Origin: an uncultured Schlesneria sp.
GTDB taxonomy: Bacteria; Planctomycetota; Planctomycetia; Planctomycetales; Planctomycetaceae
Direction of reading: 5' to 3'
Assembly (NCBI GenBank): GCA_903858935.1
Contig: CAIOKO010000227.1
Span: forward strand, 1-34,340
Length of the DNA stretch: 34,340 nucleotides
Shown: in pieces, positions 3,201 through 18,361 of the stretch
Numbering within the stretch: the first letter of the stretch is position 1
Layout of the letters: every line of letters starts with the position of its first letter
Notes under the pieces: model-generated
Database searches by the model: none
The model's input: the letters and a program-made list of their open reading frames with translations, nothing else
What the model was told of the DNA's origin: nothing
Program-made: the position numbers and the translations under genes

Positions 3201-3885
3201 ATCCGTTCCCGGTATGAGAGTCATACCCAGATTCGGCATAGACTCGACGCCACCCACAATGCAAGCAACGAGCCGCTACCGATCGCCTGCCGAAAACAAC
3301 GATTGCCGCTCGGTCCGTAAGAGATACGGGGCTCCGTTGTGTCAAAGGTCAAGTGTCGACGTCAAGTTTTGGTCTCGGAAATCCAGGCGAGCCAGGCCGA
3401 TTCGGCCAGAAAGCTGACGAAGCGCATGTGATACGTAGACCAGCCTGAGAAACGAAAGCGATGTCTTGAACTTTCTACGTATTACTCTTTCATGACCACT
3501 TTCAAGTCGCTTCGGCTCGGCCTTCGCGAATCACTTCGACTGCTCTCACAAACAGCGACATGATATTACAAAGATAGGTGTCGCTTGTCAATAAGAGCGA
3601 TAACTGTTGTCTTAACAATTCAAGGTACTCATGAGAGTTTTCGCTGGTTGTTGGAGGTGCACTCCGCTCCGCACGCGGCCACGTGACCATGCCATCGCCA
3701 AACGCGTCACCCTTATCCTGTTTTGGCTTCAGAAAAAGGGTTCAGAAAGCTCTCGACCCGAAGTCGTCACACCGTACTTTGAAAGGTCCGTGTCACCAGA
3801 GGCATTCCGTACACGGAATGGTTCAGTATCACCATTGCATTTTGTTGTTTGGTCGAAAAAGATATGACAGCAAAAGCGGGTTGTC

Positions 3886-4054
3886 CAAAGTCGCCATCAT
3901 CGCTCCACGTGAGGAGTATTGTTAGACAACCCACCGGATTTCAATCCGCATTCTCTCAAATCAGAAATTCAAACGGAATATCTGTCCCAATGCCTCGGCA
4001 ACATTTAAATTGTTTCCGACGGATGCTCATCACGCGGTGTGATAATGGCCTCTG
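3886..4054 (+). repeat. MITE-like element, copy A (about 169 bp, inverted-repeat ends)
   Basis: The left end starts CAAAGTCGCCATCATCGC and the right end is its imperfect inverse, ending GGTGTGATAATGGCC. The interior (AATTCAAACGGAATAT then CGGCAACATTTAAATTG) aligns with the copies at 18078-18250 (same orientation) and 13991-14161 (opposite orientation). There is no coding capacity. It ends 133 bp before the GTG start of the next gene, so it may lie in that gene's leader or promoter region. Confidence 0.75.
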
Positions 4055-4186
4055 ATCAGGTCAACGCGTGCGATTGAGAGTTGATTCGAAATTGCTTATA
4101 AGGCAGTTGGAACGGAGCCCCGCGAATCTGCGGGCGTGTGCAGCCTGAACCAAACTTGACGTTCCGTCATCGGGGAATCGACCGGG

Positions 4187-5845
4187 GTGGTGGCCAACGT
4201 GAGCCTTGGATCAATTATTCGGTTTGTTGTCATCAGCGGCGCGGTCGTTTTCTTCTTGGCAGCGATCGGATCGGTTGTCTTGTGCATCTTTGGAATCGAT
4301 CCGTCCCGTTCGCTGGCAAGTTCCGCCATCGATGATAAGGTTACAACTGTGCAAGCTCAGGAATTCTGTGGTGCGTGCCACAGCACTCCTCAACCTGACC
4401 TCATGCCTCGCAATGCGTGGGCGGACGAAATTGACAAGGGATACCGTCGTTATCAAGAGTCAGGTCGGCACGACTTAAAGGTGCCGGACAAGGTGGTCAT
4501 CACCGAGTATTATTCTCGTCTTGCCAGCAGCTCGGTATACGTTCCGAACGCTCCGGAAAGCTCAAAAAGTCCTGTCGAGTTTCTCGCAGAAGAGATCGAT
4601 CTTCCCGAGGAATTCGACGCGCCCGCCGTCTCATTCCTGAACGTCACGCATTCCCGCTCAGGCCCAAGCAATCCGGCGTCGGAGCTATTGCTCTGCGACA
4701 TGCTGTCGGGGTCGGTCAATCGCTTTGCATGGAACGACGGAAAGATGTCGAATTCGCAGATTGGAAAGCTGAAACACCCCGCTCACATCGTCGCCTGCAG
4801 TTTCAATGGCGGAGTCGATTTGGATTATCTTGTCGCGGATCTGGGTGTTTTGACGCCGTCTGATGTAAGGCAAGGCTCAGTTACACTGTTCCGTCGGTCA
4901 GCAGATCAGCAGTCATTGACTCCGACCACGATTATCGATGGCCTGGGGCGTGTTGCCGATGCTGAACTCGCGGACCTGGACGGCGACGGTGACAACGATT
5001 TCGTCGTGGCGGAATTTGGCCATCAGCGTTTCGGTCGATTACTTTGGCTCGAAACGGTGTCGACCACAGCGGGACGTCCCGAGACCAAATTGCATGTGAT
5101 CGATGATCGCCACGGTTCAATCCACGCACCTGTTGTCGACCTCGATGGAGATGGAGATCTGGATCTGGTGGTCTTGATCAGCCAGGAACATGAGACGATC
5201 GTGGCGTACTTGAATGACGGTCACGGGCAATTCAAGCCGCGCACATTGTTTGAGGCCGACAATCCCTCGTTTGGCTGTTCGGGACTGGAGTTGGCCGATC
5301 TCGATCAGGACGGCGATCTCGACATTCTTTTCACCAACGGCGACACGCTGGATACGATGCTGATCCAGCCGTTTCACGGGGTGAACTGGCTCGAAAACAC
5401 CGGCTCCTTCAAATACGAATTTCATCAGTTGGCCCCCCTGCCAGGTGCGGTGCGGGCTGTCGCAGGAGACTTTGATGGCGATGGCGATCTGGATATCGCT
5501 GCCGTCGCCTTCTGCCCCGGGCTGTTACACTTTCAAATGCGTCCTGGTCTTCTCGACACGATCATTTTGCTGGAACAGAAAGCCCCCGGTCAATTCGAAC
5601 GACATTCGCTGGAACGATCAAAGCTTGGGCACGTCGCGACCGCGGCCGGACACATGGCAATCGCGGCGGGAGATTTCGATGGTGACCACGATCTCGACCT
5701 TGCCGTCGGAGAATTTTCAGGACCCAACGATCACCAGCAGCACGCGTCAGGAAAACGTCGGAAGCACCGCTGGCTGACGATCCACTGGAACCAGACGAAA
5801 GCAAACGATCCACGGAATACGAAGGCAAACGACGCCAGCAACTGA
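4187..5845 (+). CDS. Membrane-anchored heme-binding FG-GAP/VCBS repeat protein
   Basis: The 552-residue product has one N-terminal membrane segment (about 11-35) and a single c-type heme motif, CGACH at residues 61-65. At least five calcium-binding FG-GAP/VCBS turns follow, such as DLDGDGDNDFVV, DLDGDGDLDLVV, DLDQDGDLDILF and DFDGDGDLDIAA, which suggest a beta-propeller outside the cytoplasmic membrane. Such proteins are common in planctomycetes; no substrate is known to me. The start is GTG at 4187 (GTG at 4190 also possible) with only a weak GGGGAA upstream. It converges with the TPR/ASPIC protein, leaving 34 bp between stops, and the shared fold type hints at related roles. The C-terminus is low-complexity, with a near-repeated KANDxxN unit. 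Confidence 0.85.
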   Translation: MVANVSLGSIIRFVVISGAVVFFLAAIGSVVLCIFGIDPSRSLASSAIDDKVTTVQAQEFCGACHSTPQPDLMPRNAWADEIDKGYRRYQESGRHDLKVPDKVVITEYYSRLASSSVYVPNAPESSKSPVEFLAEEIDLPEEFDAPAVSFLNVTHSRSGPSNPASELLLCDMLSGSVNRFAWNDGKMSNSQIGKLKHPAHIVACSFNGGVDLDYLVADLGVLTPSDVRQGSVTLFRRSADQQSLTPTTIIDGLGRVADAELADLDGDGDNDFVVAEFGHQRFGRLLWLETVSTTAGRPETKLHVIDDRHGSIHAPVVDLDGDGDLDLVVLISQEHETIVAYLNDGHGQFKPRTLFEADNPSFGCSGLELADLDQDGDLDILFTNGDTLDTMLIQPFHGVNWLENTGSFKYEFHQLAPLPGAVRAVAGDFDGDGDLDIAAVAFCPGLLHFQMRPGLLDTIILLEQKAPGQFERHSLERSKLGHVATAAGHMAIAAGDFDGDHDLDLAVGEFSGPNDHQQHASGKRRKHRWLTIHWNQTKANDPRNTKANDASN

Positions 5846-5879
5846 CCGCTGGTATTGAACATCGAGAAATCCAGCTGAA

Positions 5880-8852
5880 TCATTCGATTCGGCGAATCCA
5901 GTCTCGTTTTCCTTCAATCGCGATCCAGTCGCCGCTCAAGATGACGTCACTCGTCACCGAGACGTTTCCTGAAGGCCACCGGATTTCCACGCGACTGACG
6001 CGTTCGACAGCCCCCAGACAGATTTCCAGAACACGCTCGTTGCTCGATTCATAGCCGTCACCAGCAGTCAGCTGGTAAACGCGTTCATCACCGGATTGTT
6101 CGGCAATTGTCACTTTGGCACCAATGGCATCGCGACTGCTTTGTGTACCGACGAGTCTCAGGCGGAGTGATTGAAACGGCGATTCTGTTTGATTGACAGC
6201 CAGTAATACGGGCCCCTCCAGGTCGGTCGCAATAACGTCGGTTCGGCCGTCACGATTCCAGTCCAATAATGCCGTTCCCCGTCCCAGGCGTGGCACGTCG
6301 AACAGTTCCCCTGCGTCTCTGGCAAACAGCTCCGTGAAACGCCCATCCGGACGCCCTCGGAAGAATTGAGCCTTCATTTGAAACTGCTCACCTTCGAATT
6401 CGTCAATGTGACCATTCAGGACGACGATGTCATACCAGCCATCACGGTCGGCATCGAGAAACTGTGTACCAAAACCAAGTTGATCGTGACTCGGCTCTCG
6501 CAGTCCGGCGAACTGAGTTGCATCACGATAGAACCCACCGGGCTGCGACAGGTAAAGAGTATTGGATTCCCTGGCAAAGTTGGTGATAAACAGGTCCGGT
6601 TGACGATCCCGGTTGACGTCGGCGCAGGCAACACCCATACAGGCTTGCGCAAGTCCGAATTCGTCGAACGCAACGGCTCGTAAAAGAGCCTCGTCGACAA
6701 ACTGAACGGGTTGTCCCTTGGCAGATTGCTGATTGATCAGCAGATAGTTCGCCGTCATGTCATTGGCCACAAAAATGTCCGGCCGCCCGTCGCCATTGAA
6801 ATCGGCGACCACCAGGCCAAGTCCCATTCCCAGCGGCAGGTCCAATCCGGCTTCCGACTGTCTCTCAAGAAAATTCCCATCGCCAAGATTGTCGGAGACG
6901 GTGTCGGGTACCGGATCGAAAAATGTCGGCCGGCAAACCTTGTGGTGTCCTTTGGAGTCGGGGCAGGTACGTGTCAGCAAGTCTTTGCCTTGAGCGTAGT
7001 TCACATCAAACAACTCGGGCATTCCGTCACCATTAAGATCTGCGATGGCGCAACTGACAGTCCAGAAACTCTGCTTCAGTCCGGCTTCGTCGGTGGCATC
7101 CGTGAATGATCCGTCTCCATTATTCCGGTAAAGCCTGTTTCGTCCAAAGTTGGCGACGTAAACATCCGGAAATCCATCGTTATTGTAATCACCTGCAGCA
7201 GCCCCCTGGGAATAGGACGTCTCATGAATTCTTGTGAACTGCGTGACATCTTCAAATCGGTTCCCGCTCTGGTTGCGATAGAGCGCATCCGACGGCCCTT
7301 GTGGCGTACCCGCTGGCGACGTACTTCCCTGCGCAAAGAACAGATCGGGCCAGCCGTCCATGTCGAAATCGAGGACTGCGACTCCAGCCCCCATCGTTTC
7401 AAAGATTTTTCGACCGCTGCCGGGTGTATAGGAATTGACATACCGAAAGCCGAGTCCGACCCGCTGGGCCTGATCTTCAAAGTGGATTTCTGATTGATGT
7501 TTATTGACGATTTCGGAAGATTTGCGATCCGGAGAATTTTGCAAGGACCAGTCTGGCAAAGGAAATCGCTCCCACGAAAAGTCGCTGCCCGGCAGGCTAC
7601 CAGGTTTCGTACGAGGAAGATCCGCAGTTAATAAAGGTTTGATTCTTTTTCGGCAAGCGACGACGGAGGGGTTGTTGGGTGGGAACGTCAATTCGTGAAT
7701 GTCACACCAACCCCAAGCCTCCCATAATCGCCCGACCGCTTCGAGTTCTTCAATCATCGGCAAAATCGATTCGGCGGCGCGTGGTTCAACAAGACGCTCG
7801 TTCAGATCAACGATCCTCTGCATTCGGCGACCGCGTTCGGTAAAGGCGTTGCCAAGTTCTGATTCGTCGAGCGTTTTCAACAGTTGCCCGAGCAGAACCG
7901 TGGTCGACAGTTGCTCTGGCTCACGGATCAGGGCCTCATGTAAACAGCGGATCGCCGATGCCGTTTTACCGCACGTAGATAACCATTTGCCTCGCGCGGA
8001 CCAGATGCGTGCATCGTCGACCGCTTCCGGATTTACATGAGAGATCCAATCAAGAAACTTTTCGGGCAAGAACCGGGCATACAGTTCGGCGAGGGCACCT
8101 TGTGCTTCAATATCGTCAGGATGGGCCGTGGTGATCTGTGTGAGAAGCCGCTCTGCGACCTCAATGTGTTTCAAGTACAGCTTATCCAGCGTTTTGGCCA
8201 ATAAGGGCGATTTGTCTGTCGGATCGGCTTGGAGAATCGCATCCAGGCGATTTTTGTCGACAAGTCGTGGAACAAGCGCCGTCAGCAGGATCAAATCCCC
8301 CCGGGTGAATTCGTCCCGTTTCACCAGTTCAAGAATACACCGGGCCGTCTCGCGAGAATGGCCGGTTACGGCCGCAATCTGCTCTTGCATCTGTAACGAG
8401 AACCGCACTCGAACGGACAGATTTTCCGAGATTCTGAATGCGCTTTTCGCAGGGCGGACGAAATTTTGTCTCATCCAGAGACTGCCAAGCTTGATACAGA
8501 GCTCACCTGCATCTGCAGGGTTAAGTCGTGAGAATTCCTCCAATGCGGCAAGTGAGCGATCAAATTGGCCACTTTGCCCAGTCGCCTCAGCGAGTAGCTT
8601 CCAGGCGGATGAAGACTTTTGCGACTGACCGATGGCAGATTCCGCAGACTTTATAGCAAGGGAGAAGTCGCGATGTGACAGCGCCACTCTGCCTGTTTCG
8701 ACAAGCTTTTCCGCAGCCGTTGTCGTAAAAAAAAACCAATACAGAAACCCCGCGATCGAAGTGAAACCCCCGATCAACATCAGTTCGCGAACCCAACCAC
8801 GACGTTGCGATGGCTGTGTATTGCTTGTCATCGCGATCACACACCTTGGCAT
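5880..8852 (-). CDS. TPR, FG-GAP and ASPIC/UnbV domain protein (CRTAC1-like)
   Basis: The 990-residue product has an N-terminal membrane segment (about 27-46) and a TPR-like helical region (about 48-340). A seven-unit FG-GAP propeller spans roughly 485-860, with turns such as DFDMDGWPDLFF, DYNNDGFPDVYV, DLNGDGMPELFD, DFNGDGRPDIFV and DWNRDGRTDVIA. A C-terminal ASPIC/UnbV domain (about 895-975) includes GDGYESSNERVLEICLG and the VEIRWPSG motif. This architecture is widespread in planctomycetes and acidobacteria; its biochemical role is not established. An internal ATG at 8831 is an alternative start and would begin just before the basic stretch preceding the membrane anchor. It is convergent with the heme FG-GAP gene. 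Confidence 0.88.
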   Translation of the reverse strand: MPRCVIAMTSNTQPSQRRGWVRELMLIGGFTSIAGFLYWFFFTTTAAEKLVETGRVALSHRDFSLAIKSAESAIGQSQKSSSAWKLLAEATGQSGQFDRSLAALEEFSRLNPADAGELCIKLGSLWMRQNFVRPAKSAFRISENLSVRVRFSLQMQEQIAAVTGHSRETARCILELVKRDEFTRGDLILLTALVPRLVDKNRLDAILQADPTDKSPLLAKTLDKLYLKHIEVAERLLTQITTAHPDDIEAQGALAELYARFLPEKFLDWISHVNPEAVDDARIWSARGKWLSTCGKTASAIRCLHEALIREPEQLSTTVLLGQLLKTLDESELGNAFTERGRRMQRIVDLNERLVEPRAAESILPMIEELEAVGRLWEAWGWCDIHELTFPPNNPSVVACRKRIKPLLTADLPRTKPGSLPGSDFSWERFPLPDWSLQNSPDRKSSEIVNKHQSEIHFEDQAQRVGLGFRYVNSYTPGSGRKIFETMGAGVAVLDFDMDGWPDLFFAQGSTSPAGTPQGPSDALYRNQSGNRFEDVTQFTRIHETSYSQGAAAGDYNNDGFPDVYVANFGRNRLYRNNGDGSFTDATDEAGLKQSFWTVSCAIADLNGDGMPELFDVNYAQGKDLLTRTCPDSKGHHKVCRPTFFDPVPDTVSDNLGDGNFLERQSEAGLDLPLGMGLGLVVADFNGDGRPDIFVANDMTANYLLINQQSAKGQPVQFVDEALLRAVAFDEFGLAQACMGVACADVNRDRQPDLFITNFARESNTLYLSQPGGFYRDATQFAGLREPSHDQLGFGTQFLDADRDGWYDIVVLNGHIDEFEGEQFQMKAQFFRGRPDGRFTELFARDAGELFDVPRLGRGTALLDWNRDGRTDVIATDLEGPVLLAVNQTESPFQSLRLRLVGTQSSRDAIGAKVTIAEQSGDERVYQLTAGDGYESSNERVLEICLGAVERVSRVEIRWPSGNVSVTSDVILSGDWIAIEGKRDWIRRIE

Positions 8853-8917
8853 GCCACGACGCGATCGGTTTCACCGCAAGCGGAAATCATAATCTTCGCC
8901 GCGGATGAGATAGAAAC

Positions 8918-8950
8918 GAGGCCGCAGTGAGCAATCCCCACTGCGACCTC
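8918..8950 (-). terminator. Stem-loop after the DUF1559 gene
   Basis: GAGG-CGCAGTG (8918-8921, 8923-8929) pairs with CACTGCG-CCTC (8939-8945, 8947-8950) around a 9-nt loop with one internal mismatch. On the minus strand the stem is followed by GTTTCTAT, a weak T-rich tail. It lies 63 bp past the DUF1559 stop and probably ends that transcript. Confidence 0.55.
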
Positions 8951-9012
8951 TCAAAAGTGATCGTTCATCGATCCTAAGTTATTGTCGGCACCCACGCCAC
9001 AACGGGTCTCGC

Positions 9013-10011
9013 TTAGAAATCGCCTAATACGGCACCGTCTGCAATGTATGCCAGACTGTTCACAGTCACGAGACTCATATTCTCGCTGATGAAGCGAACG
9101 GAACCGTCGGCCAGCAGGATCTGCAGCCCGCCCGTATGCATACTCGACGGACTCGCCCAACTGATCACCCTTCCAGGCTTCCCGGCACTTGGTGCCTCAC
9201 CGCCCCACGCTTGCCACGAGGCAGGTGCATACCAGTCATTGAGCTTTCCATTGCCCGAGGTACCTCCATTATAGAAGTAGACCATGCCACCACCGACCCA
9301 CTCTGCACAGGACCACGTCTGAGGATCTCCGTTATAAACGGTGAGACAAGTTTCCGCAGCGGCAACCGTGTTGCTTGAGCCATCCGAAATGTCACGAAGG
9401 CCGGCGTTCGAGTCGGAACCGAACAAGGGTCTGGCTCGGATATTTTTGGTGGCATAAGTGTTCGTGTCGACGCCACCGGCGGCGTAGTAATCTCCGGGTT
9501 GCTGGTCGACACTGAGTCCATAACTGGTCAAGTATGATTGGCCTGACTGGTCGCACCCATAGTTAACGTTATCGCTAAGAAAAGGGTTTCCGTTATCGGT
9601 GGGACAAAGGAGTGAGGGCAACTTGGTGCGACTTGCCGCAATATTTGCTGCAGACGGAGGACCGGGGGTCGCGATTGGCGTGTTCGTGTTGTTGTTCCAT
9701 TTTCCCATCGGCAAGCTGAAGTTCAACGTATTGTACAATGGCCCCTGATCAAAGTATGGCAGCAACATACTGATACCGGTTGTGTTTTTGTATCCCGGTT
9801 GACTCCATCCAAACGGAAATCGATTGTAGTTGTCGTGGTAATTGTGAAGCGAAAGGCCAAGTTGCTTCAGGTTGTTCTTACACTGGGTTCTTCGAGCAGC
9901 CTCTCGCGCCTGTTGGACGGCCGGCAAGAGCAAAGCAATTAATACCGCGATGATCGCAATGACCACCAGCAATTCGATCAACGTAAAGGCTCGCCTCTTT
10001 ACAATCGTCAT
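9013..10011 (-). CDS. DUF1559 domain protein with prepilin-type N-terminus
   Basis: The 332-residue product starts with a short basic leader and the type IV pilin/pseudopilin signature RRAFTLIELLVVIAII (about 6-21), then QQAREAARR and KNNLKQLGLSLHNYHD, the classic start of the DUF1559 family. The C-terminal part carries LLADGSVRFISENMS, also typical. The family is greatly expanded in planctomycetes and is thought to be processed by prepilin peptidase and exposed outside the inner membrane; its function is unproven. The start is strongly supported by GGGAGGT (10024-10018) 6 nt before the ATG. It follows the lipoprotein gene by 78 bp on the same strand, a recurrent pair in this phylum, and a stem-loop follows its stop. 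Confidence 0.93.
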   Translation of the reverse strand: MTIVKRRAFTLIELLVVIAIIAVLIALLLPAVQQAREAARRTQCKNNLKQLGLSLHNYHDNYNRFPFGWSQPGYKNTTGISMLLPYFDQGPLYNTLNFSLPMGKWNNNTNTPIATPGPPSAANIAASRTKLPSLLCPTDNGNPFLSDNVNYGCDQSGQSYLTSYGLSVDQQPGDYYAAGGVDTNTYATKNIRARPLFGSDSNAGLRDISDGSSNTVAAAETCLTVYNGDPQTWSCAEWVGGGMVYFYNGGTSGNGKLNDWYAPASWQAWGGEAPSAGKPGRVISWASPSSMHTGGLQILLADGSVRFISENMSLVTVNSLAYIADGAVLGDF

Positions 10012-10089
10012 TACTTTACCTCCCTAACAGTTATAGAAATACGCGTCCGGACAATAAGGACGCACTGAAACACGTTTGGAGATGAGACA

Positions 10090-10557
10090 TCAGTTTGCGG
10101 TAACCTTGAAACTTAAATCTTTTACGCCACCATCTGGAATCATGATTTTGTTATGTTTCCCGGCTTTTGACGGATCGCTCCACTTGGCCGGAATCTTCTC
10201 TTTGACGGTGATCCCCGGTATTGGCCTGCCATCATCGGTCATTTGGGCATTACCTTCGTTCGCATTCAAGGAAAACGTGACGATGTACTCGCCGACCGGC
10301 ACTCCACCACGATTCATGTAGTTCCTCATACGAAACTCACCCGTATCATCCGTAACGGCACTGCCACCATGACTCTTGGCATCTTTGGTGGGTGTAAAGT
10401 GGACCTGGATACCGGCTTCGGGTTTCCCGTTGATCAACACGATCCCTTCTGCGGGAACAAGGGTTTCGACAGGCTTACTTGCTGCCCCCCCGCACCCGGT
10501 GAACGTGACAACGCCGAACACACAAATCGTGGACAGAGCAAAAAATGAACGACGCAC
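10090..10557 (-). CDS. Small lipoprotein with carboxypeptidase-regulatory-like fold
   Basis: The 155-residue product has a lipoprotein signal ending VTFTGCGG, with the lipidated cysteine at residue 22. One transthyretin-like/carboxypeptidase regulatory-like domain follows (GIVLINGKPEAGIQVHF, then TDDTGEFRM and GEYIVTF). The GTG at 10557 is chosen because GAGGAG lies 8 nt upstream; a TTG at 10575 would extend the frame but put the Shine-Dalgarno inside the gene. It is the first gene of a two-gene unit with the DUF1559 gene. Lipoproteins of this type next to DUF1559 genes are common in planctomycetes; a cell-surface or periplasmic partner role is inference. Confidence 0.85.
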   Translation of the reverse strand: MRRSFFALSTICVFGVVTFTGCGGAASKPVETLVPAEGIVLINGKPEAGIQVHFTPTKDAKSHGGSAVTDDTGEFRMRNYMNRGGVPVGEYIVTFSLNANEGNAQMTDDGRPIPGITVKEKIPAKWSDPSKAGKHNKIMIPDGGVKDLSFKVTAN

Positions 10558-10654
10558 GAATCTTGCTCCTCGCAATATTTAGAGGATGTAATTTAAAATT
10601 CGAAACCGCTCTAGGAGACGCATCAGTGATATGAACATTATGCTGCGTAAATCA

Positions 10655-10683
10655 TTAATAATCTTTGAACTTGTACATTTCAA
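10655..10683 (-). promoter_or_regulatory. Possible promoter of the lipoprotein-DUF1559 pair
   Basis: On the minus strand TTGAAA (10683-10678) is followed after 17 bp by TATTAA (10660-10655), about 100 bp before the GTG start, in an AT-rich patch. Each box matches consensus at only four positions, so this is a weak call. Confidence 0.3.
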
Positions 10684-10827
10684 GGAAAAAGCTCAGGAAT
10701 TCGAAACTGAATTCGCGAATCCGAAATTGACACGCTACAGATTTCCGTGCCGATTGTCTCCGCCTGACGACCCGTCGCTCCCGACACCCAGAACCAGGCA
10801 AATACAAAACAGCGTATTTTCAACACC

Positions 10828-10920
10828 GAAATTCGAAAAAAGAATTTGATCCGACGGCGAGGCAGCGCTTGAATTGTTTCTGACACATGCTCATCACGCG
10901 GTGCACTGATGGTGACTTTG
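10828..10920 (+). repeat. MITE-like element, decayed partial copy D
   Basis: GAAATTCGAAAAAAG, then GGCAGCGCTTGAATTG, then TGCTCATCACGCGG and a right end ATGGTGACTTTG align with the right half of copies A and C. The left half is not clearly recognisable. A further fragment, GTGATGAGCATGCATCGG (about 10935-10952), matches the left arm of copy B at 17 of 18 positions, suggesting nested or rearranged copies. Confidence 0.6.
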
Positions 10921-10927
10921 ATCGAGA

Positions 10928-10971
10928 CGCTCTGTGTGATGAGCATGCATCGGTCGTGGGGACACAGAGCG
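10928..10971. other. Perfect 10-bp inverted repeat (stem-loop)
   Basis: CGCTCTGTGT (10928-10937) and ACACAGAGCG (10962-10971) are exact inverses around a 24-nt loop, followed by GTTTACCC. It lies just after repeat copy D, and its loop contains the fragment of the element's left arm. A terminator or a transposition scar are both possible. Confidence 0.5.
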
Positions 10972-11093
10972 TTTACCCTTCAATTTCGCAGGGGCCGCTA
11001 CGAAACTAAAGAGGGCCTTCGCGATTCCTCAGTTAAGATTTGTGCTGATAACGATTTGACTCTTTGCTCGCCGCAAATCTTGTTTCTGCGGGA

Positions 11094-11191
11094 GGGCGAG
11101 GCTTCCGCACGGGCCGCGAAATAGGTACGCGCATCTACTCAGTGGCGTGACGGGAGCCGCGGGCTCCCACTCGGTTGCGGGCACCGCCCGC
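11094..11191. repeat. GC-rich intergenic repeat block with two hairpins
   Basis: GGGCGAGGCTTCCGC (11094-11108) occurs again, inverted, at 14294-14308. Downstream GGGAGCC/GGCTCCC (11152-11168, 3-nt loop) and GCGGGC/GCCCGC (11177-11191, 3-nt loop) form two perfect hairpins in tandem. Nothing here codes. The pattern resembles dispersed intergenic palindromes; it lies 113 bp before the Ig-like gene. Confidence 0.55.
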
Positions 11192-11303
11192 GCTGTGATA
11201 TTCACGGCGTCCCAACCCCGGCGTACATTATGCGTGGAGGATGGAAGCTCAGGCTGCAAAAACTGAACTGGGTTCGAAATGTGACAATCGATTGGAGGAA
11301 ATC

Positions 11304-12134
11304 ATGAATTATCGTCCGCAACGACATTCATTCGGTTGGTTAAATGGAATCGCCATCGTTGCAGCTGCCATCCTGCTTTTGCCGATATCCCCGGGTTCGA
11401 TCATCAGACTGCCTGTTTAAGTCGCTGCGGAAGAATCGGGGAGGAAACCCGAATCGATTTTGCAGAAGACCGAATATCCTGCGATCGTCAAAACCGTCCC
11501 TGAAATCGGTGCGACCGACGTCAGTGACGATCTGAAAGAAATCAAGGTGACGTTTGACAGGAAGATGCAAACGGGGATGAGCTGGACCGGTGGGCCGCCC
11601 GAATTTCCACCGATGGATGACTCACGTAAAGCTCAATGGGTCGATGACCAGACCTGTATCTTGCCTGTAAAACTGGCTAAGGGGTCTTTTTACCGGCTCG
11701 GTTTGAATTCCAAAAGTTATCGAAACTTCAAAAGCGCCGACGGAATTCCTTTACCGCCGATGGCACTCTATTTCGTCACCGTTGGAGCGTCAAAGGAATT
11801 GACTGACAAGGTGCGCGTGCCGAAAGCGGTCAAATTCGAGCCTGCAAACGGAGCCGACTCGGTCGACTCGGCGACAACCGAAATCAGCATCACATTCGAC
11901 ATCCCGATGGGAGCTGGAATGTCCTGGGTCGGCAGCGGTGCGGAATTTCCAACGTTGGTCAAAGGAAAAAAGGGAACGTGGTCAACCGACAAATTGACAT
12001 GCACCTTACCCGTAACATTGGAACCCATTCACAACTACACCATCGGTGTAAACAGCCTGGACCACAACAATTTCCAGAGTGAAAGCGGCGTACAAGTCGC
12101 GCCCGTGGTCTATAACTTTAAAACGGGGAAGTAA
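11304..12134 (+). pseudogene. Exported two-domain Ig-like (SbsA/Big_5 type) protein with an in-frame stop after the signal peptide
   Basis: The best start is the ATG at 11304, preceded by GGAGGA (11294-11299). It gives a signal-peptide-like N-terminus (basic start, hydrophobic core about residues 16-29) and then meets TAA at 11418-11420. The same frame continues without further stops as VAAEESGRKPE into the mature protein, ending at 12134. The mature part has two similar Ig-like repeats, each with an ATDVS/ADSVD start, a FDxxM motif, a GMSW motif and a Y-x-x-G-x-NS motif near the end. A TTG at 11460 would give a 224-residue product without an export signal, which is unlikely for such a protein. 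One nonsense mutation (for example CAA to TAA), a sequencing error or stop readthrough would each explain it. Confidence 0.75.
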
Positions 12135-12313
12135 TCGTTATTCACCAATGCAAATGCGAGAAGGGCGCGTCGAGGATCGCCCGACGTACACGTTCTGGCA
12201 GTGCGATTTAGATTGAATGCGCTTCCCTCGAGATCAAACAAAAAGAAATGGTGTTAGCGCAAAGGCGTGAAGCCTGCTCGACAACACCACCCGCGTCAAT
12301 GTTTTGCCGTTCT

Positions 12314-12784
12314 TTAGCGGCTTCTGCGAATCGGTCGGTTCGCTTCGTAAGCCAGGTAAACGATTAACGCCGTAACGCCGGAAAAATAAACAATATTCAT
12401 CCAGAAGAAGAATGAAACACAACCTGGTCGAGCTTGATCTTTCAATCGACTTGTCGGGTATTCACCCGGAATGTACTCAATCAAAGCGGTCGCACCGGGG
12501 AGATTTTGATGTCGTGGAATTGTCACCGTATTCATTCGAGCAATTCCCGAGACCGGATCATGAAAGTGATACCGGACAAGCTTTGAGCACTTGGGTCCTG
12601 CACCAATCACTTCTGTTCTGGCTTGAAGTTCGATTCCGTGTTTACGAAATCGGGTTTCTGTGTAGCACAGGCCCGCCATAACGAGATAAAGCAGCACAAG
12701 TCGGCAGACGACCTTTGACCACGAGTGGCGACCGAAGTAATTTGAACTGCAGTCGCAAAGAGTATCTGCCCATCCGCCCAACAT
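12314..12784 (-). CDS. DUF3592-like membrane protein
   Basis: The 156-residue product has two membrane segments (about 25-42 and 122-146) around a soluble part. That part has a small beta-rich look (ARTEVIGAGPKCSKLVRYHF, then TVTIPRHQNLPGATALIEYI), where DUF3592 proteins carry the conversion-of-units style beta-domain. The starting ATG at 12784 gives a rather cysteine-rich N-terminus and no clear Shine-Dalgarno. It stands alone between the Ig-like gene (convergent) and the PEP-CTERM terminator. The family call rests on overall pattern, not on a strong motif, and the function is unknown. Confidence 0.6.
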   Translation of the reverse strand: MLGGWADTLCDCSSNYFGRHSWSKVVCRLVLLYLVMAGLCYTETRFRKHGIELQARTEVIGAGPKCSKLVRYHFHDPVSGIARMNTVTIPRHQNLPGATALIEYIPGEYPTSRLKDQARPGCVSFFFWMNIVYFSGVTALIVYLAYEANRPIRRSR

Positions 12785-12942
12785 GCCGAATTCTCATTCA
12801 CGAAGGCGTCACACCTAATTCCGATTTCAAACGCAATCTAGGCTGCATCGGATCACGGAAAAGATGATGTGGCACTGAAATTGGCCTGGCCCCGATATTT
12901 GTCTGTCATTGTCGATTCGTCATTTTTAGAAAACGACGCTGC

Positions 12943-12994
12943 GAAAAAAAGAAAGCTGTCAGGAACCGAAATTCATTCGGCTCCTGACAGCTTT
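12943..12994 (-). terminator. Strong Rho-independent terminator of the PEP-CTERM gene
   Basis: AAAGCTGTCAGGA (12952-12964) pairs with TCCTGACAGCTTT (12982-12994), and an inner CCGAA/TTCGG stem continues it. On the minus strand the stem is followed by C and then seven T residues (complement of 12943-12949). It starts 28 bp past the PEP-CTERM stop. Confidence 0.9.
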
Positions 12995-13021
12995 GAGATC
13001 ATCGAAAAAAACCAGCGAAGA

Positions 13022-13669
13022 TTAAGCCTTGCGTCGGAATCGACGGCCGACGCCGAGGAGAGCCAGCGAACAGAGCGACAAGGCCAACGTGCTCGGTTCG
13101 GGGACTACAGTGCCGTTTACGCTGAAACCCAAAGGGGAAGCCGAGGGGGTAAAACTCGAGAGGTACGGGTTCGTAACATTTGTATTAGGACTGTTTGAGA
13201 ATGAGGCACCCGCAAAGGTCCCAGCCCCGTTCGTCGTGCCTCCACCCACCGACCAGCGAACATTCACGTCGCCGGTCGTATCGGTGTTAAAAAGTACTAT
13301 CGCGTAAGCATGACCGCCATCGAGTGACAGTCCGCTGAACAGACTGACCGGCGTGAAGTCGGCTGCGCTGGCAAAGTTGCCAACAGTCACCCCCGCATTG
13401 GTGGCGATTACGTTCGTCGGAACATCTTCGAGCAAATAAGCGTCAACGGTTTCGGCACTCCCGTCAACACTCCCGATCAAGGCCGTAATGGACGCATTGA
13501 TGGCGTTCGTGGTTTGGCTCCAGGTCACCGCTTCGACTTGGCTGTTCGCGCCGCCAATCCGGAACGAAGTGCTCGTTGCAGGGCCGTTGTCGACGATGAG
13601 ATCCGCAGAAGAAATTGTGGCCAACGCATGAATCAAAGCGATTGCCAAAACTGAAGTGAAACGACGCAT
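13022..13669 (-). CDS. PEP-CTERM sorting domain protein
   Basis: The 215-residue product starts with a cleavable signal (MRRFTSVLAIALIHALATISSA). The middle is rich in Thr, Asn, Ser and Gly with a beta-sandwich look, and the tail is a standard PEP-CTERM signal: VPEPST at about 188-193, a hydrophobic helix, then RRFRRKA. PEP-CTERM proteins are exported, anchored and processed by exosortase; many act in exopolysaccharide or biofilm matrix. No exosortase gene is in the window. The ORF begins with ATG at 13669 with an AGGAG (13678-13682 on the opposite strand) upstream, and a strong terminator follows. The specific role of this protein is unknown. Confidence 0.9.
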   Translation of the reverse strand: MRRFTSVLAIALIHALATISSADLIVDNGPATSTSFRIGGANSQVEAVTWSQTTNAINASITALIGSVDGSAETVDAYLLEDVPTNVIATNAGVTVGNFASAADFTPVSLFSGLSLDGGHAYAIVLFNTDTTGDVNVRWSVGGGTTNGAGTFAGASFSNSPNTNVTNPYLSSFTPSASPLGFSVNGTVVPEPSTLALSLCSLALLGVGRRFRRKA

Positions 13670-13990
13670 TAAATAAGGCTCCTTTGGTAAACGACATATC
13701 CCAAATGCAGTGCTGATCGAAGCCCACAGAATTGGATTGCATCCCCGATCGACGCGGTAGTTTTAACAAACCGTCAACAGAAGCGTCAAGGAACCGCCTG
13801 TTTCATGTCGTGAACGTTTCGCGAGTTTTTGCGGCCCTGATGCAACAACCGCTTAGTGGTAATACCGCCGTACAGACGGTTATCAGCGACAATCTCTTCC
13901 GTACAACATTCGACATAACGCAGGGTGGCACGGTCTTGGACTTCCTCGTTTGAGGAAATTGACTTTTGAGTCAAGTTTCAGAATTTCCTT

Positions 13991-14161
13991 CAAAGTAGCC
14001 ATCATCGCTCCGCGTGATGAGCATGCGTCGGAAACGATTGAAACGTTGCCTGCGCGTTGGGACAAAGACTTAGTTTGATTTCCTGATTTAAAAATCTGCG
14101 GATAGTACTATGACGGGTTTTCGAACAATGCTCATCATGCGGAGCGATGATGGCTACGTTG
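13991..14161 (-). repeat. MITE-like element, copy B (inverted orientation)
   Basis: The cleanest copy, 171 bp. Its ends CAAAGTAGCCATCATCGC and, inverted, CAACGTAGCCATCATCGC run on in parallel through GATGAGCAT to TCGGAAAC/TCGAAAAC, giving terminal inverted repeats of about 45 bp with few mismatches. The interior aligns with copies A and C only after reverse-complementing. Within each arm GCCATCATCGC and GCGTGATGAGC can pair (with G-U pairs) around TCC as a small hairpin. Confidence 0.8.
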
Positions 14162-14162
14162 T

Positions 14163-14189
14163 TCAGAGGCGAAGCCTCTCTGATTTTTC
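14163..14189 (+). terminator. Small hairpin with T-run next to element B
   Basis: AGAGGC and GCCTCT (14165-14179) pair around GAA, extended by TCA/TGA across a one-base bulge, and five T residues follow. It has the form of a weak plus-strand terminator, but no plus-strand gene precedes it. Confidence 0.3.
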
Positions 14190-14293
14190 TGATTAGCGAA
14201 ATTTAGTGCTGATTAGTGTTCTAATCTTACTTTTCTTCGCCTTCTGTTATCGGCACTCCATTTGATCCATGCATGTACGTGCAACACGGCTCG

Positions 14294-14308
14294 GCGGAAG
14301 CCTCGCCC
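14294..14308 (-). repeat. Inverted copy of the 15-bp block at 11094-11108
   Basis: The complement reads GGGCGAGGCTTCCGC, identical to 11094-11108. It is flanked here by GGCTCGGC and a run of C, and lies in non-coding sequence, so it is probably part of a short dispersed intergenic repeat. Confidence 0.5.
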
Positions 14309-14390
14309 CCCCCAATCAACGCGCGAACGATCACCCTATTCTGAACCCATCGTGCGACGCGCATTAACCGGCTGTGCCGGGCTGGACCGG

Positions 14391-14687
14391 TTAGACTCGT
14401 GCCATTTCGCACTGTCCGCTGCGTCCCTGATCGTCGACCCAGTAGCCTTGCCAGGGGTAGAACATGTAGGTTTGCTGGTAATAGCGGATCATGAAAGATG
14501 AGCCGACGACGCAGATGAATGTTCCGACCATGTTGCTTGTCTGATCAATAACACTACCAATCTGGACAGGTGAGTTGCCGCTATAGCCATTGAAGTTCTG
14601 ACAACCAATCTGGAATGGTGGGCGTATGCCGTCGGAAATCTGGTAGTATGCCATGCTAATGTCACTTTCAATGAGATATTGTTTCAA
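14391..14687 (-). CDS. Unrecognised ORF, possibly a 3' gene remnant
   Basis: The frame is open for about 110 codons and ends at 14391. Its product is rich in Tyr, Gln, Asn and Gly with a short hydrophobic stretch (NMVGTFICVVGSSFM) and four cysteines. The first possible start is TTG at 14687, with no Shine-Dalgarno seen, and the frame stays open 11 codons upstream of it. A truncated gene is therefore as likely as a small intact one. I recognise no family. It sits among repeat sequence with no partner gene nearby. Confidence 0.3.
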   Translation of the reverse strand: MKQYLIESDISMAYYQISDGIRPPFQIGCQNFNGYSGNSPVQIGSVIDQTSNMVGTFICVVGSSFMIRYYQQTYMFYPWQGYWVDDQGRSGQCEMARV

Positions 14688-15271
14688 AGCGTGCGCGTCG
14701 AGGTCTGACGAGTTTTGTGATCAAGTGAGACAAACTTAATCCTGATCGACGAAGATTCGTCGTGTTCGGCATGAATATATCACTGGAGACAAATGCCAGA
14801 CAACGGAACACGCCAAAACTGTCGTTAACAATTACAAACGCGATCTCAAGGCCATGACCGAGTGATGAAGGTTCAGCGTGGCCTCGCTCAGCTGCCGGGA
14901 CACGGCAGTCCATTCAAATTCGTTTTGACCACGAAGCTTTCGACTTGTACGGCGCGAGCACTTCCCGCAACCCAATGCGAAGTCCAAGCAGGTACACACC
15001 TCGACCGAACAGATTGAAGAGTTTCCTAAACGAAGATAAGAAGGATTGGAACACTCATCTGTACTCAACTTCGCTAATCAGAAAAGACAAAAGCACTTTT
15101 AGTTCCTGCTGATCATCATTCGTGAAATGCGATTAAATCCCGTGAAAGTGGATTGTTTTGACAAAGAACAAACCCCATGCAACGATACAAAGGATCTTCG
15201 AAATTCATGACGACCGTTTCAAACGGTCACAATTCATGGGTTTCTGTGTTCTCAAGACTTCGTGGAAACTC
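14688..15271. other. Gene-free stretch before the sugar-isomerase gene
   Basis: Short frames exist on both strands (for example a cysteine-rich minus frame at 14832-15068), but none shows a ribosome-binding site or a family resemblance. The upstream in-frame codons of the next gene (from 15158) lack the look of coding sequence. No clear promoter is seen. Confidence 0.5.
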
Positions 15272-16222
15272 ATGAAACCACCACTCACACGACGTGCATT
15301 CTGCCACTCAGTCGCCTGTGGCGTTGCAGTGACTGCGATCAGCAACGGGTTCGCACAAGCTCCAAAAAATCCACCACAGGGATTAACATTGGCCATCGGC
15401 AATTACGGCATGCAGTCGTACAAGACCGAAGAGGCGATCCGGTTGATTGCTGGCCTGAAGTTTGACGCCCTTGAATTGACCGTCATGCCGGAATGGGATT
15501 CGTCGCCGGAAAAACTGAAGGGGGAACGACGCGGCACAGTGCATCGCTTTCTGGCGGATACCGGACTGACTTTAACGTCACTCATGGAAAATCTGCCTCC
15601 CTCAGCGAACGACGCCGAACATCAGAAATCGCTCGAACGACTGAAACTGGCAGCAGGGTTGGGACATGATCTTGCACCTGACTCGCCCCCGCTGATCCAG
15701 ACCGTTCTTGGCGGAGGTGATTGGAGCGAAAAGAAAGAGCTTTATCGTGACCGGCTGGGTGATTGGCGGAGGATTGCCGAATCGACAAAAACAATCATTG
15801 CGATCAAACCTCATCGCAGCGGTGCGATGTCGAATCCGGAACAGGCGACGTGGTTGCTGGAGCAACTGGGGTCGTCTCCCTGGCTGGGAATGATTTATGA
15901 CTACAGCCACTATGCGATGCGAGATCTCTCGGTCACCGAGACGGTCAAAACAGCCTTTCCGACAACGGTTCAGATTGTGGCGAAAGACGTAGCGAAAAAC
16001 GGGGAGCAGTTCGAGTTTGCTTTGCCTGGAGAGGCGAACACGTTTGACCACGCGGAAATCCTGACCGCCTTTTACACGGCTGGATTCCGTCGCAATGTCT
16101 GCTGCGAAGTCAGCTCCCAGGTCTTTCGACGACCTGGCTATGATGCTGCTGCGGCAGCCAAGGTCTGTTACGACTTTATGAGCCGGGCCTTCGAGAAAGC
16201 GGGCATTCCGCGTCGGAAATAG
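15272..16222 (+). CDS. Tat-exported sugar phosphate isomerase/epimerase-like protein (AP endonuclease 2 fold)
   Basis: From the ATG at 15272 the product is 316 residues. It starts with a twin-arginine-type leader (LTRRAFCHSV, hydrophobic core, then GFAQA) and continues as a xylose-isomerase-like TIM barrel: LAIGNYGMQSYKTEEAI, FDALELTVMPEWD, TIIAIKPHRSG and LGMIYDYSHYAM, the last holding Asp and His of the usual metal site. Planctomycetes carry many such exported barrels, probably acting on sugars or cyclitols; the substrate is unknown. A GTG/TTG-type upstream start (15158) would add 38 residues before the Tat motif and is less likely. A 23-codon fragment downstream (16400-16471) repeats the C-terminus of this gene. 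Confidence 0.82.
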   Translation: MKPPLTRRAFCHSVACGVAVTAISNGFAQAPKNPPQGLTLAIGNYGMQSYKTEEAIRLIAGLKFDALELTVMPEWDSSPEKLKGERRGTVHRFLADTGLTLTSLMENLPPSANDAEHQKSLERLKLAAGLGHDLAPDSPPLIQTVLGGGDWSEKKELYRDRLGDWRRIAESTKTIIAIKPHRSGAMSNPEQATWLLEQLGSSPWLGMIYDYSHYAMRDLSVTETVKTAFPTTVQIVAKDVAKNGEQFEFALPGEANTFDHAEILTAFYTAGFRRNVCCEVSSQVFRRPGYDAAAAAKVCYDFMSRAFEKAGIPRRK

Positions 16223-16310
16223 CCGAGGTGCGCGGGGCTTCGCGAACCAGAGAATTACAAACGGCTCGCCTCGAACGACTGAGCGCTGGCTGTTCTGGGG
16301 TCGGGCGTTG

Positions 16311-16379
16311 CAATTTCAAAATTGGGCGGGTGAACAACACAACCGCAGTCACTCGATCGACTTGCCAATTTTGAAATTG
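16311..16379. repeat. 15-bp perfect inverted repeat
   Basis: CAATTTCAAAATTGG (16311-16325) and CCAATTTTGAAATTG (16365-16379) are exact inverses separated by 39 bp, and each arm is itself nearly palindromic. It lies between the sugar-isomerase gene and the remnant of its paralogue. Possible roles are a paired operator-like site, a terminator, or inverted-repeat ends of something small; none can be chosen here. Confidence 0.5.
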
Positions 16380-16399
16380 GAACACAGGCCCATCTCTTC

Positions 16400-16471
16400 A
16401 TGAGCGTTGTTTTTGAAAAAGCGGGAATTCCTCGACGTCGACAGAGACAACGCTCACTGCATCTGGAGTAA
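16400..16471 (+). pseudogene. C-terminal remnant of a second sugar-isomerase paralogue
   Basis: This frame reads MSVVFEKAGIPRRRQRQRSL and three more residues to a TAA at 16469. It closely matches the last residues of the complete gene just upstream (MSRAFEKAGIPRRK), at both protein and DNA level, with a slightly longer basic tail. The rest of the second copy is absent, so a tandem duplicate was probably deleted down to its tail. Confidence 0.6.
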
Positions 16472-16491
16472 TAGGTTTTGTCGATAACAAT

Positions 16492-17295
16492 TTATAGTGA
16501 TTTCCAAAGCGTCATGCGGGCTTCTTCTTCGTCTGGATTTGGCAAACCCGGAAAGACATTATCGTTAACCGCAGCACTGAAGATTCCGCGTCCTGCTCGC
16601 CATTCGTGTGCACTCCCTTCTGGATCGGCCAATGCGATTTGAAGCCCCCTGACGAAATCGATTGGCCGACTTTCAAGGTGTTGTGAATAGCTGGCAGCGG
16701 CGAGTCCTTCGGTTACACGTCCCGCCAGTACATATTGTGCGAGATTAACGGGTGTCGCGGCTTTTAATGAAGGATCAGCCAGATCGGCATCGCACACATT
16801 GCGGTCAAGACTGTTCCAACCTCGACACGAGACAGGCCGAACCGGGTAAATTTCACACCGACATTCATTCAAAAGCGGGCAGGCAGGTCGAATACTGCGC
16901 CGTGCTTCGGCATCGAGATTATCGGTTTGCTCGAGATGTCGAATGATTCGTTGCTGAATTTCAGCGAGTTTCTCGAAGGGTATGATTTGACGCAGGTAAT
17001 CAGCAGCAGCGAGGACTTCCATGGGATGGGCCACGACGTGAAGGTGACAGCAGGCGCTGCATCCTTCCGCACAGGCCGGTCGACGATCCTTCGGTCCATA
17101 TTCGACCGTCTCGCGAATGATCGAGTCTGTCAATTGCTGTGCCTGCATGACCAGCTGGCTGATTTGTGTTCCTGAAGGATCCTTTTGAAGATCCCGTTTC
17201 GCGGCCATTCCGACCGAGCGAAAGACCTGGTCTGACGCTTTGCGAATCCAGTCGTTTGAATCAGGGACACTCATTGGGCTTGTGATGTCATTCAA
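16492..17295 (-). CDS. YkgJ-family cysteine-cluster protein
   Basis: The 267-residue product carries the YkgJ/UPF0153 signature: C75-x3-C79-x2-C82-C83 (CAEGCSACC), then a second group at C139, C145, C147, C157 and C168 within ACPLLNECRCEIYPVRPVSC. These cysteines are thought to bind a zinc or iron-sulfur centre; the family's biochemical role is not established. A helical stretch separates the two groups. No signal peptide is seen, so it should be cytoplasmic. It is last of three minus-strand genes (17986 to 16492), 30 bp after the small membrane protein gene. Confidence 0.85.
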   Translation of the reverse strand: MNDITSPMSVPDSNDWIRKASDQVFRSVGMAAKRDLQKDPSGTQISQLVMQAQQLTDSIIRETVEYGPKDRRPACAEGCSACCHLHVVAHPMEVLAAADYLRQIIPFEKLAEIQQRIIRHLEQTDNLDAEARRSIRPACPLLNECRCEIYPVRPVSCRGWNSLDRNVCDADLADPSLKAATPVNLAQYVLAGRVTEGLAAASYSQHLESRPIDFVRGLQIALADPEGSAHEWRAGRGIFSAAVNDNVFPGLPNPDEEEARMTLWKSL

Positions 17296-17325
17296 AAGGG
17301 ACTTGTTTTGGAATTGGGGACGTGA

Positions 17326-17526
17326 TCACGAAGCGGATAGGATTACCGCACCAACCAGGGCATTGACCAGTCCAAACACTACGTGAAATTTCACGGCGGT
17401 CGCACTTCCGAAGAGCCGCTCCGATCGCTTGAAGTGAGGCAGCCGCTGGTACAGACGAGAACCGCTGATCGCACCAACAATCTGCAGAATTCCGAATAAC
17501 AGAAACACGATGCCGACAATTTGCAT
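17326..17526 (-). CDS. Small two-helix membrane protein
   Basis: The 66-residue product has two hydrophobic segments (about 2-20 and 47-64) joined by a basic loop (RLYQRLPHFKRSERLFG), with an AxxVKFHVVFGLVNALVGAVIL second helix. This composition would be unusual by chance, and the frame fits between two same-strand genes (30 bp and 64 bp gaps), which supports it. The ATG at 17526 has a GGA about 12 nt upstream, a weak site. I recognise no family. Confidence 0.65.
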   Translation of the reverse strand: MQIVGIVFLLFGILQIVGAISGSRLYQRLPHFKRSERLFGSATAVKFHVVFGLVNALVGAVILSAS

Positions 17527-17590
17527 TGAGGTCAGATTCCTTTTTGATTTGGTGGTCTATTAAAACGACGGTGCTTCAACAGCAACTGGC

Positions 17591-17986
17591 CTATTGTTCG
17601 ACACAGCGCCGAACTGACTCTATGTCGTCGATCGAGAAGGGGCCGAATTCTGAAGATCTGGCGGCGACCGAGTCGTACCCCCAGAGGAATAATTGTCCGC
17701 GTAGACTTTTTCTTGAATCGGGAAATCCTTGAAACTTGCGACCATCTTTGAGTAACACTTCGACCTCGGCCGTTTCTTCGATCCCCAGACTTTCGTGAAC
17801 CAGTTCGGGAAATCGGGCCCAGGCCCAGGCCCAAAGCGTTTTGTTGGGATCGACCTTGCCGGCGATATCAACCCAGTCAGGTTCCGCTTTGATGAGGTCC
17901 CCCCGACCTGCCTGTTGACACCAGGGCTTAAGGACTTCGCTTAACCAGCTTTTTCGGGAGGCTATCAGATCTTCGAATGAAGTCAT
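17591..17986 (-). CDS. Conserved-looking cytoplasmic protein of unknown function
   Basis: From the ATG at 17986 the product is 131 residues (a TTG at 18001 would add five). It has an amphipathic N-terminus (SFEDLIASRKSWLSEVL), a Trp-rich helix (KTLWAWAWARFPELVHESL) and a beta-rich C-terminal half (AEVEVLLKDGRKFQGF, then QLFLWGYDSVAARSSEFGPF), with no export signal. The VLLKDGRKFQG strand pair recalls an SH3-like barrel, but that is only an impression. It is the first gene of a probable three-gene unit with the small membrane protein and the YkgJ-type gene. Confidence 0.65.
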   Translation of the reverse strand: MTSFEDLIASRKSWLSEVLKPWCQQAGRGDLIKAEPDWVDIAGKVDPNKTLWAWAWARFPELVHESLGIEETAEVEVLLKDGRKFQGFPDSRKSLRGQLFLWGYDSVAARSSEFGPFSIDDIESVRRCVEQ

Positions 17987-18077
17987 CACTTCTGCTTTCA
18001 AGGGATAAATCGACAGGTGTATTATTTCGGCGGTGCTGTTTACTCGCGAAGAAGTCCAGAGAGGAATTGCCTCAGAC

Positions 18078-18250
18078 CAAAGTAGCCATCATTGCTCCAC
18101 GAGATGAGGATTGTTCGAGAACTCGTCATACTTACTGTCCGCACGTTTTTTAAACCAGGAATTCAAACGAAGTATTTGTCTCGAGGCTGAGGCAACATTT
18201 GAACCGTTTTCGACACCTGCTCATCACGCGGAGCGATGATGGCTACGTTG
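18078..18250 (+). repeat. MITE-like element, copy C (about 173 bp)
   Basis: The left end CAAAGTAGCCATCATTGC and right end GCGATGATGGCTACGTTG are inverse to each other. The interior (ATTGTTCGAGAACTCGTCAT, then GGCAACATTTGAACCG) aligns with copy A directly and with copy B after reverse-complementing. It lies 207 bp before the NHL protein gene and 92 bp upstream of the three-gene minus unit, so it separates two divergent transcription units. Confidence 0.78.
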
Positions 18251-18339
18251 AATGAAACCCTGAATCTTGAATCAATGAGTCGAGTTTCACACTCGAAGAA
18301 TCCTTATGTCGCCCGACTCGCCTGGAATACCTCTGACTT

Positions 18340-18361
18340 CGATTGCCCCGAAGGGCAATCG
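18340..18361. other. Perfect 9-bp hairpin with CGAA tetraloop
   Basis: CGATTGCCC (18340-18348) and GGGCAATCG (18353-18361) are exact inverses around CGAA. It lies about 95 nt before the NHL protein start. There is no T-run after it, so a leader structure is as likely as a terminator. Confidence 0.45.

Follow-up and report, generated by a model that had tools for sequence, protein, structure and literature searches.

Insertion sequences of the IS200/IS605 family (IS608, ISDra2) have subterminal hairpins, no terminal inverted repeat, a left-border motif that resembles the right-end motif, and an HUH Y1 enzyme. Among the short bacterial repeats, GTAG REPs in planctomycetes, REP doublets located in palindromes and RAYTs flanked by their own REPs are known from the accessible portions of four papers (PMC3733652, PMC3116915, PMC8266576, PMC6006769). 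Unlinked target palindromes number in the hundreds for T. roseum GTAG-23, and none are given for A. variabilis GTAG-15 and H. neapolitanus CGTC-1 in the available text (PMC3733652). With respect to movement, the available parts of Bertels and Rainey (PMC3116915) contain three single excision reads and 200 reads for one excised GII doublet, as well as 18 insertions that the authors do not vouch for. The repeat family described here belongs to a known kind of element, but its nesting is unusual.

The window, i.e., the whole stretch of 34,340 nucleotides from an uncultured Schlesneria sp. that was analysed, carries three near-complete copies of the repeat (A, B and C) and a decayed fourth (D), as a preliminary description of this DNA had claimed. 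Copies A, B and C are 75–83% identical in mutual alignment. The features are:

3841..3867, + strand: decayed RAYT gene, in-frame 3′ end (FVVWSKKI and stop); weak similarity from 3721
3886..4054, + strand: copy A, REPIN core; arms at 3890–3916 and 4025–4050, right outer part gone
10816..10920 (start approximate), + strand: copy D, decayed right half of a core; right arm at ~10889–10916, 73% identical to B over 105 bp (blastn)
13938..14181, − strand: copy B, full unit of 244 bp with a hairpin at the left end, a pair of inverted REP arms, a spacer and hairpins at the right end; ends in AAGTCC
13995..14022, − strand: copy B, right REP arm; inverted, exact match
14130..14157, − strand: copy B, left REP arm, GTAG-tagged
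18058..18303, + strand: copy C, complete 246-bp unit
18082..18109, − strand: copy C, left REP arm; 4 mismatches, poor fold
18219..18246, + strand: copy C, right REP arm; exact match

The 171-bp core consists of two inverted hairpins of the GTAG REP type and is thus a REPIN. The preliminary description was right in suggesting a REP-like repeat. It could name no described family that matches, but a known class does fit, the GTAG REP doublets or REPINs with a RAYT. Rfam gives no match to positions 3000–19000 of the window at E values up to 1.

The repeat is abundant in its own genome (G000; 7.93 Mb in 280 contigs). A 211-bp query around copy B has at least 120 matches there, the best of them mostly near full length with 80–87% identity; 40 of the 165 first-look candidates from this search were scored. 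Allowing up to three mismatches, the 25-bp arm is matched 119 + 111 = 230 times, and the reversed-pattern control 0 + 0 times; as a complete copy has two arms, the arm count is not the copy count. Five loci with parts of the core are present in an unbiased 590-kb sample of this genome. The preliminary description had considered that a genome search might find only the window copies, with no conservation at the edges; it finds many copies, and their edges are conserved. Thirteen of 59 genomes (own included) have matches to the repeat query, which are near full length in the own genome and in three relatives, G001, G004 and G005. The first 100 bases of contigs C38, C45, C55 and C147 of the own genome are, among the matches listed, inside or beside a copy, and because these contigs start at copies the family seems to break the assembly.

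The arrangement of the arms is uniform. Of 75 neighbouring arm pairs less than 400 bp apart in own and relatives' loci, 67 are in inverted orientation with starts 133–137 bp apart. Each arm had been described as able to fold by itself. When the four arms of B and C were folded as single-stranded DNA, each against shuffles, this held for three (z −2.1 to −2.9) and failed for the decayed left arm of C (z 0.16). As single-stranded DNA the complete units fold far better than shuffles (z −9.0 for B and −4.75 for C), and in the best fold of both the two arms pair with each other, not each alone. The end hairpins of the unit, described below, are visible in the fold of copy B. Two other arrangements of the arms were seen. 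At L116 (5171–5620, contig C83) a row of cores seemingly with common arms forms a local REPIN array, and in relative G028 (L143/L154, contig C221, ~1465–1665) a tandem 35-bp unit built from the same REP arm is present in at least five copies.

The copies are largely intergenic: 5 of 62 own copies have an overlap exceeding 100 nt with an open reading frame of 120 aa or longer, the other 57 being clear. With open reading frames of this size called by a simple script, 43 of the 62 copies have one on each side; 16 of these 43 are between convergent frames, vs 55 of 376 background pairs (p 8e-4).

The repeat had been drawn too small. Thirty aligned loci show that similarity extends well past the ends CAAAGTAGCC/GGCTACTTTG given in the preliminary description, ~20 bp on the left and ~54 bp on the right, to reach a unit of 245 bp. 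Pairing of left and right ends in the own-genome loci examined yields 36 units, 32 of which are 244–247 bp in length, the others being 233, 234, 240 and 253 bp. The unit starts with AGnGAGG and ends in AAGTCC in 30 of 42 right ends; the left flank ends in TCC in 29 of 58 cases. A small hairpin, AGnGAGGCTTTGCCTC, is present at the left end, and a longer one, TGAAACTTGACTC...GAGTCAAGTTTCA, terminating in GAAGAAGTCC, at the right end. What had been taken for terminal inverted repeats of about 45 bp are actually the internal REP hairpins. The extreme ends of the 36 paired units (AGnGAGG and, inward from the right, GGACTTC) have no common inverted repeat. At one own locus (L127, 1045–1208, contig C79), the same arms enclose another spacer and a possible 5-bp direct repeat, GAGCG, is found at the arms; here the core has perhaps moved without the end modules.

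The unit is often located within a second, outer repeat, GTGCCACTGC...GCAGTGGCAC, which is frequently a double hairpin. Both halves of the outer hairpin are recognised at 22 of the 36 units. Window units B and C are not within it, and three units (L008, L051 and L129) directly adjoin the apparent right end of another unit. The outer hairpin is abundant where the unit is abundant. On both strands, the exact pattern is found 67 times in the own genome and 247, 137 and 388 times in G001, G004 and G005, respectively, vs 2, 2, 11 and 3 times in G002, G007, G011 and G012, which have no match to the repeat query; in these counts perfect palindromes score on both strands, and reversed controls give 0–2 per genome. 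A strict stem score across the insertion gives a weak signal (8 of 36 units score at least 7, vs 9% with swapped flanks and 2% with letter shuffles). The variable base of the outer stem is complementary in 13 of 15 readable units (8 T-A and 5 G-C, with exceptions A-C and G-A; Fisher p 0.003 on 14 units, the A-C case left out). Outer GTGCCAC hairpins are also present just upstream of two Y1_Tnp genes other than the candidate described below (L034, 1257–1352, and L035, 1328–1414), and from this position it may be that another RAYT has the outer repeat as its REP.

Two own regions, L115 and L123, are syntenic with the sister species G001, G004 and G005 at ~76–91% identity. Eleven own copies were looked at, and four sites (copies 3, a, b and c) were resolved; the other seven include window copy C, which is shared with G001. 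In the 12 combinations of four sites and three sisters, there are nine bare outer hairpins, two cases with no outer repeat, one with another REPIN and none with the same unit. Copy 3 (234 bp in the own genome) is in the loop of a hairpin that is bare in G001, CTTCGGA^GTCTTCGGAG; the same hairpin is bare in G005, which has a unit in the partner hairpin in the opposite orientation, and G004 has neither hairpin nor unit. At copy a, the hairpin is bare in G004 and G005, and G001 has the same end modules around a different REPIN. The copy b hairpin is bare in all three sisters. At copy c there is a bare double hairpin in G001 and G005 and no repeat in G004. One locus thus displays three states: no repeat, hairpin, and hairpin with unit. 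Judged from sequence comparison, the bare orthologous sites argue for mobility of the 245-bp unit that bears the doublet; they concern the whole unit, not the core alone. Empty sites in relatives had been proposed as a check, and with bare outer hairpins in sister species at four own sites, the proposal of a non-autonomous mobile family has proved correct.

Comparison of window copies A, B and C with the sisters revealed no clean empty site. At copy A, synteny with G004 ends at 4175. At copy B, it breaks inside the element (14019–14130) and G004 has the element at both broken ends, so that recombination between copies is likely. Some of the repeats coincide with contig ends and with one synteny break. 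For copy C, G001 has an orthologue at the corresponding position in a more decayed state, which indicates that some copies are old. Elsewhere, copy 2 of L115 corresponds to one bare hairpin in G004, and copy 4 of L115 is absent from G001 and G004, with ragged borders.

It might be argued that the repeats are not mobile now: hairpins already in place would have acquired copies through gene conversion or recombination, and the copies would serve in termination or as structures at mRNA ends. The excess between convergent genes and the strong folds are in keeping with this, as are the synteny break inside copy B with the element at both ends and the sharing of copy C with G001. We consider it improbable, however, as at four sites bare hairpins are seen in sisters, and in the own genome the unit interrupts the hairpin at one and the same point.

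A candidate gene for the movement of the REPINs is found on contig C272 (L006, 826–1482, 218 aa) between copies of the core. It surfaced only via a scan for inverted arms far enough apart to leave room for a gene. Its best NCBIfam match is the REP-associated tyrosine transposase (E 6.5e-14, 52 bits, cut-off 80), which is likewise the best match, below the cut-off, in five of five RAYTs tested. The Pfam Y1_Tnp score is 20.4 (cut-off 23), compared with 13.3 for the G001 protein and values above the cut-off for those of G008 and G028. The predicted structure (pLDDT 76.6) has as its top Foldseek match 4er8, a RAYT bound to a REP hairpin (E 1.2e-5, TM 0.38). An exact arm is situated 25 bp past the stop codon, and a decayed arm (6 of 25 mismatches) just before the start. 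A gene 94% identical to it, on contig C27 of G001, is flanked on either side by an exact adjacent arm and by a core, with two mismatches in one outer arm. From this sequence context, the C272 RAYT is probably the cognate enzyme gene of the core REPIN.

The motif PNHxH is present in eight of nine aligned RAYTs, the exception being the G001 C27 protein (L319), and Y196, N200 and P201 are invariant. The C27 protein has HVQ at this place, the other eight aligned homologues having HVH in seven cases and HAH in one; because HVQ replaces HVH it may be inactive. RAYT matches are found in 22 of 59 genomes (own included). In G004 and G005, which are rich in units, the closest RAYTs found are 42% and 59% identical.

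The window has its own trace of such a gene. The preliminary description saw no coding capacity, but copy A has coding remains: in a tblastn comparison with the C272 RAYT, query residues 174–218 are matched at 37.5% identity (E 0.004) and the last seven, VVWSKKI, are identical. The order, RAYT tail and then arm, is as at locus L318. As it is fused to the in-frame tail of this RAYT, copy A is read as the remnant of a RAYT-bearing locus.

Other candidates were set aside. The 13 own-genome loci with other Y1_Tnp genes have no core arm in flanks of up to 1.5 kb. The open reading frame between wide inverted arms at L116 encodes an acyltransferase. In G010 (L250), an arm ~365 bp past a RAYT was taken as incidental, as that RAYT has different inverted repeats of its own. 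Among 75 loci around RAYT relatives, the only matches to the repeat profile are L167 and L169 of a Schlesneria MAG, and these are to the outer-hairpin part.

Seven further RAYTs have GTAG hairpins on one or both sides (G001 contig C153, G002, G005, G008, G022, G028 and G051 contig C21). They are 46–61% identical to the C272 protein where aligned; G002 is outside that alignment and is 58% identical in the homologue search. The G028 stem is common to the C272 family, and the remaining six have other, compensated stems. In a set of 11 REPs, five of eight stem pairs are changed on both sides and 96.5% of cells are paired, a percentage favoured by the way the set was chosen, as hairpins picked by eye; 10 of the 11 are next to a RAYT. 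The covariation is matched by 0 of 500 shuffles, and on the two measures counting pairs and types by 15 and 91 of 500. Slid controls are far lower. At G051 contig C91 (58%) and beside more distant RAYTs, the inverted repeats are different, or none were recognised.

These stems bear on whether the family consists of classic MITEs. Such elements arise by deletion from a DDE transposon, carry terminal inverted repeats and move by double-strand cut-and-paste, and a short target duplication accompanies them. Like the MITEs ERIC, NEMIS, RUP and Nezha, as presented in the available text of PMC3733652, the unit is small, non-coding and intergenic with inverted repeats, which here are long and lie inside the unit. 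Its length is strict and its empty sites are clean. TCC is present at both borders of copy 3 and could represent a target duplication; TCC also belongs to the element's own right end. The described MITEs, however, resemble degenerate insertion sequences with terminal inverted repeats (PMC3733652, same portions), whereas the repeats here are internal REPs and the extreme ends of the unit share no inverted repeat. The inverted arms, moreover, are GTAG hairpins with compensated stems that are tied to RAYTs in several genomes, and the three wide inverted arm pairs in the loci examined span a RAYT gene, an acyltransferase gene and an array of cores, one each. A MITE origin thus appears very unlikely.

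The reading we favour, with a probability of roughly 0.85, is that the family represents a REPIN population with its RAYT, carried in a 245-bp unit that is often nested in an outer hairpin. It draws on what was observed computationally: the arm structure with compensated stems, the RAYT between repeat copies, the unit borders, the empty sites in sisters and the persistence of copy C. In the proposed mechanism, two inverted GTAG REP hairpins with ~107 bp between them would be propagated in trans by the RAYT, a Y1/HUH single-strand transposase that would recognise the REP hairpins. The REPIN would travel within the 245-bp unit, which adds the left-end and right-end hairpins, and the unit would insert after a GACTCC-like sequence; in many cases this site would be in the loop of another, older hairpin repeat. 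The result would be Russian-doll composites of ~345 bp. We infer that the RAYT acts on the unit as single-stranded DNA, cutting and joining it, and that the entire 245-bp unit is moved by it, not just the core. The insertion borders do not coincide with the REP ends, being ~20 bp (left) and 54 bp (right) outside the core, and the unit could therefore be moved by another enzyme. Further points against the favoured reading are the low identity of the closest RAYTs found in the unit-rich G004 and G005, HVQ in the G001 protein, Pfam scores below the cut-off for the C272 and G001 proteins, the mismatches in the upstream arm at C272, the choice by eye of the REP set, the pairing of the arms with each other in the best folds of B and C, the possible target duplication TCC, the recognition of both outer-hairpin halves at no more than 22 of 36 units, and the different or unrecognised repeats at G051 contig C91 and more distant RAYTs.

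A related possibility, which keeps the REPIN and RAYT part in common with the favoured reading, is that there are two movers: a separate IS200/IS605-like element, X, made of the end hairpins, would move the 245-bp unit, and RAYT-driven REPINs would be passengers inserted in X. At the copy a hairpin of G001, the same X flanks surround another REPIN that is 76% identical (133 and 115 bp) to those beside the second G001 RAYT. X-like flanks around REP doublets with other spacers are found in G008 (L137, L159), and the upstream core at C272 is without the left X module. On the other hand, no X module adjoins any Y1_Tnp locus in the scan, which covered 13 own loci, 30 from the relatives' 86 matches and 75 elsewhere, and we regard two movers as possible but doubtful. 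The copy a site of G001 can be explained in two ways: REPINs of two types arrived in one hairpin, each within the same modules, or one REPIN took the place of another once the insertion had occurred. Since this site has the same end modules around the REPIN of another RAYT, we speculate that X might be a reusable socket, in which REPINs of different RAYTs are swapped at a fixed place, the filled socket targeting the hairpin loops of a second REP-like system. If this tentative idea is true, the socket would represent a two-tier, interlocking REP ecology in one genome, with hairpin loops as preferred landing sites.

Returning to the favoured reading of a REPIN population in a 245-bp carrier, several RAYT/REP pairs with different stems are available across planctomycetes. 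Given these pairs, the filled and bare sites and the three-state locus, target choice and enzyme–hairpin specificity are testable. Among the matches listed in a literature search whose scope excludes most subscription papers, no title or start of an abstract concerned the repeat family, the genus or nested REPINs with empty sites at orthologous positions.

The family has features of several known systems. With IS200/IS605 elements it shares the lack of a terminal inverted repeat and the HUH Y1 fold, and perhaps also the end hairpins and the TCC-type left border with an AAGTCC right end, where TCC could equally be a target duplication; it differs in that there is no gene inside and the end hairpins are only candidate recognition sites. 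As far as the available text goes, it is like the REP dimers in palindromes of A. variabilis (GTAG-15), H. neapolitanus (CGTC-1) and T. roseum (GTAG-23) in having REPs in mid-palindrome (PMC3733652); here, the bare palindrome is itself abundant, and which repeat inserted first can be read from the orthologous bare sites. The closest likeness is to GTAG REPs/REPINs and their RAYTs (Bertels and Rainey, 2011, PMC3116915; Di Nocera, 2013, PMC3733652), which in the accessible portions of both papers have GTAG with a short hairpin, inverted doublets, high intergenic copy number, a RAYT flanked by its own REP and species-specific stems. The spacing differs, with ~107 bp between arms (starts ~135 bp apart) vs 71 bp between the first residues of the 16-mers in SBW25 GI doublets (PMC3116915; PMC3733652, same portions). 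Another difference from known REPINs is the 245-bp carrier, which adds end hairpins to the doublet and in many cases is itself located in a second hairpin repeat. The text available from PMC3116915 contains few direct signs that REPINs move, and here filled and bare orthologous sites with exact borders are present in related planctomycetes.
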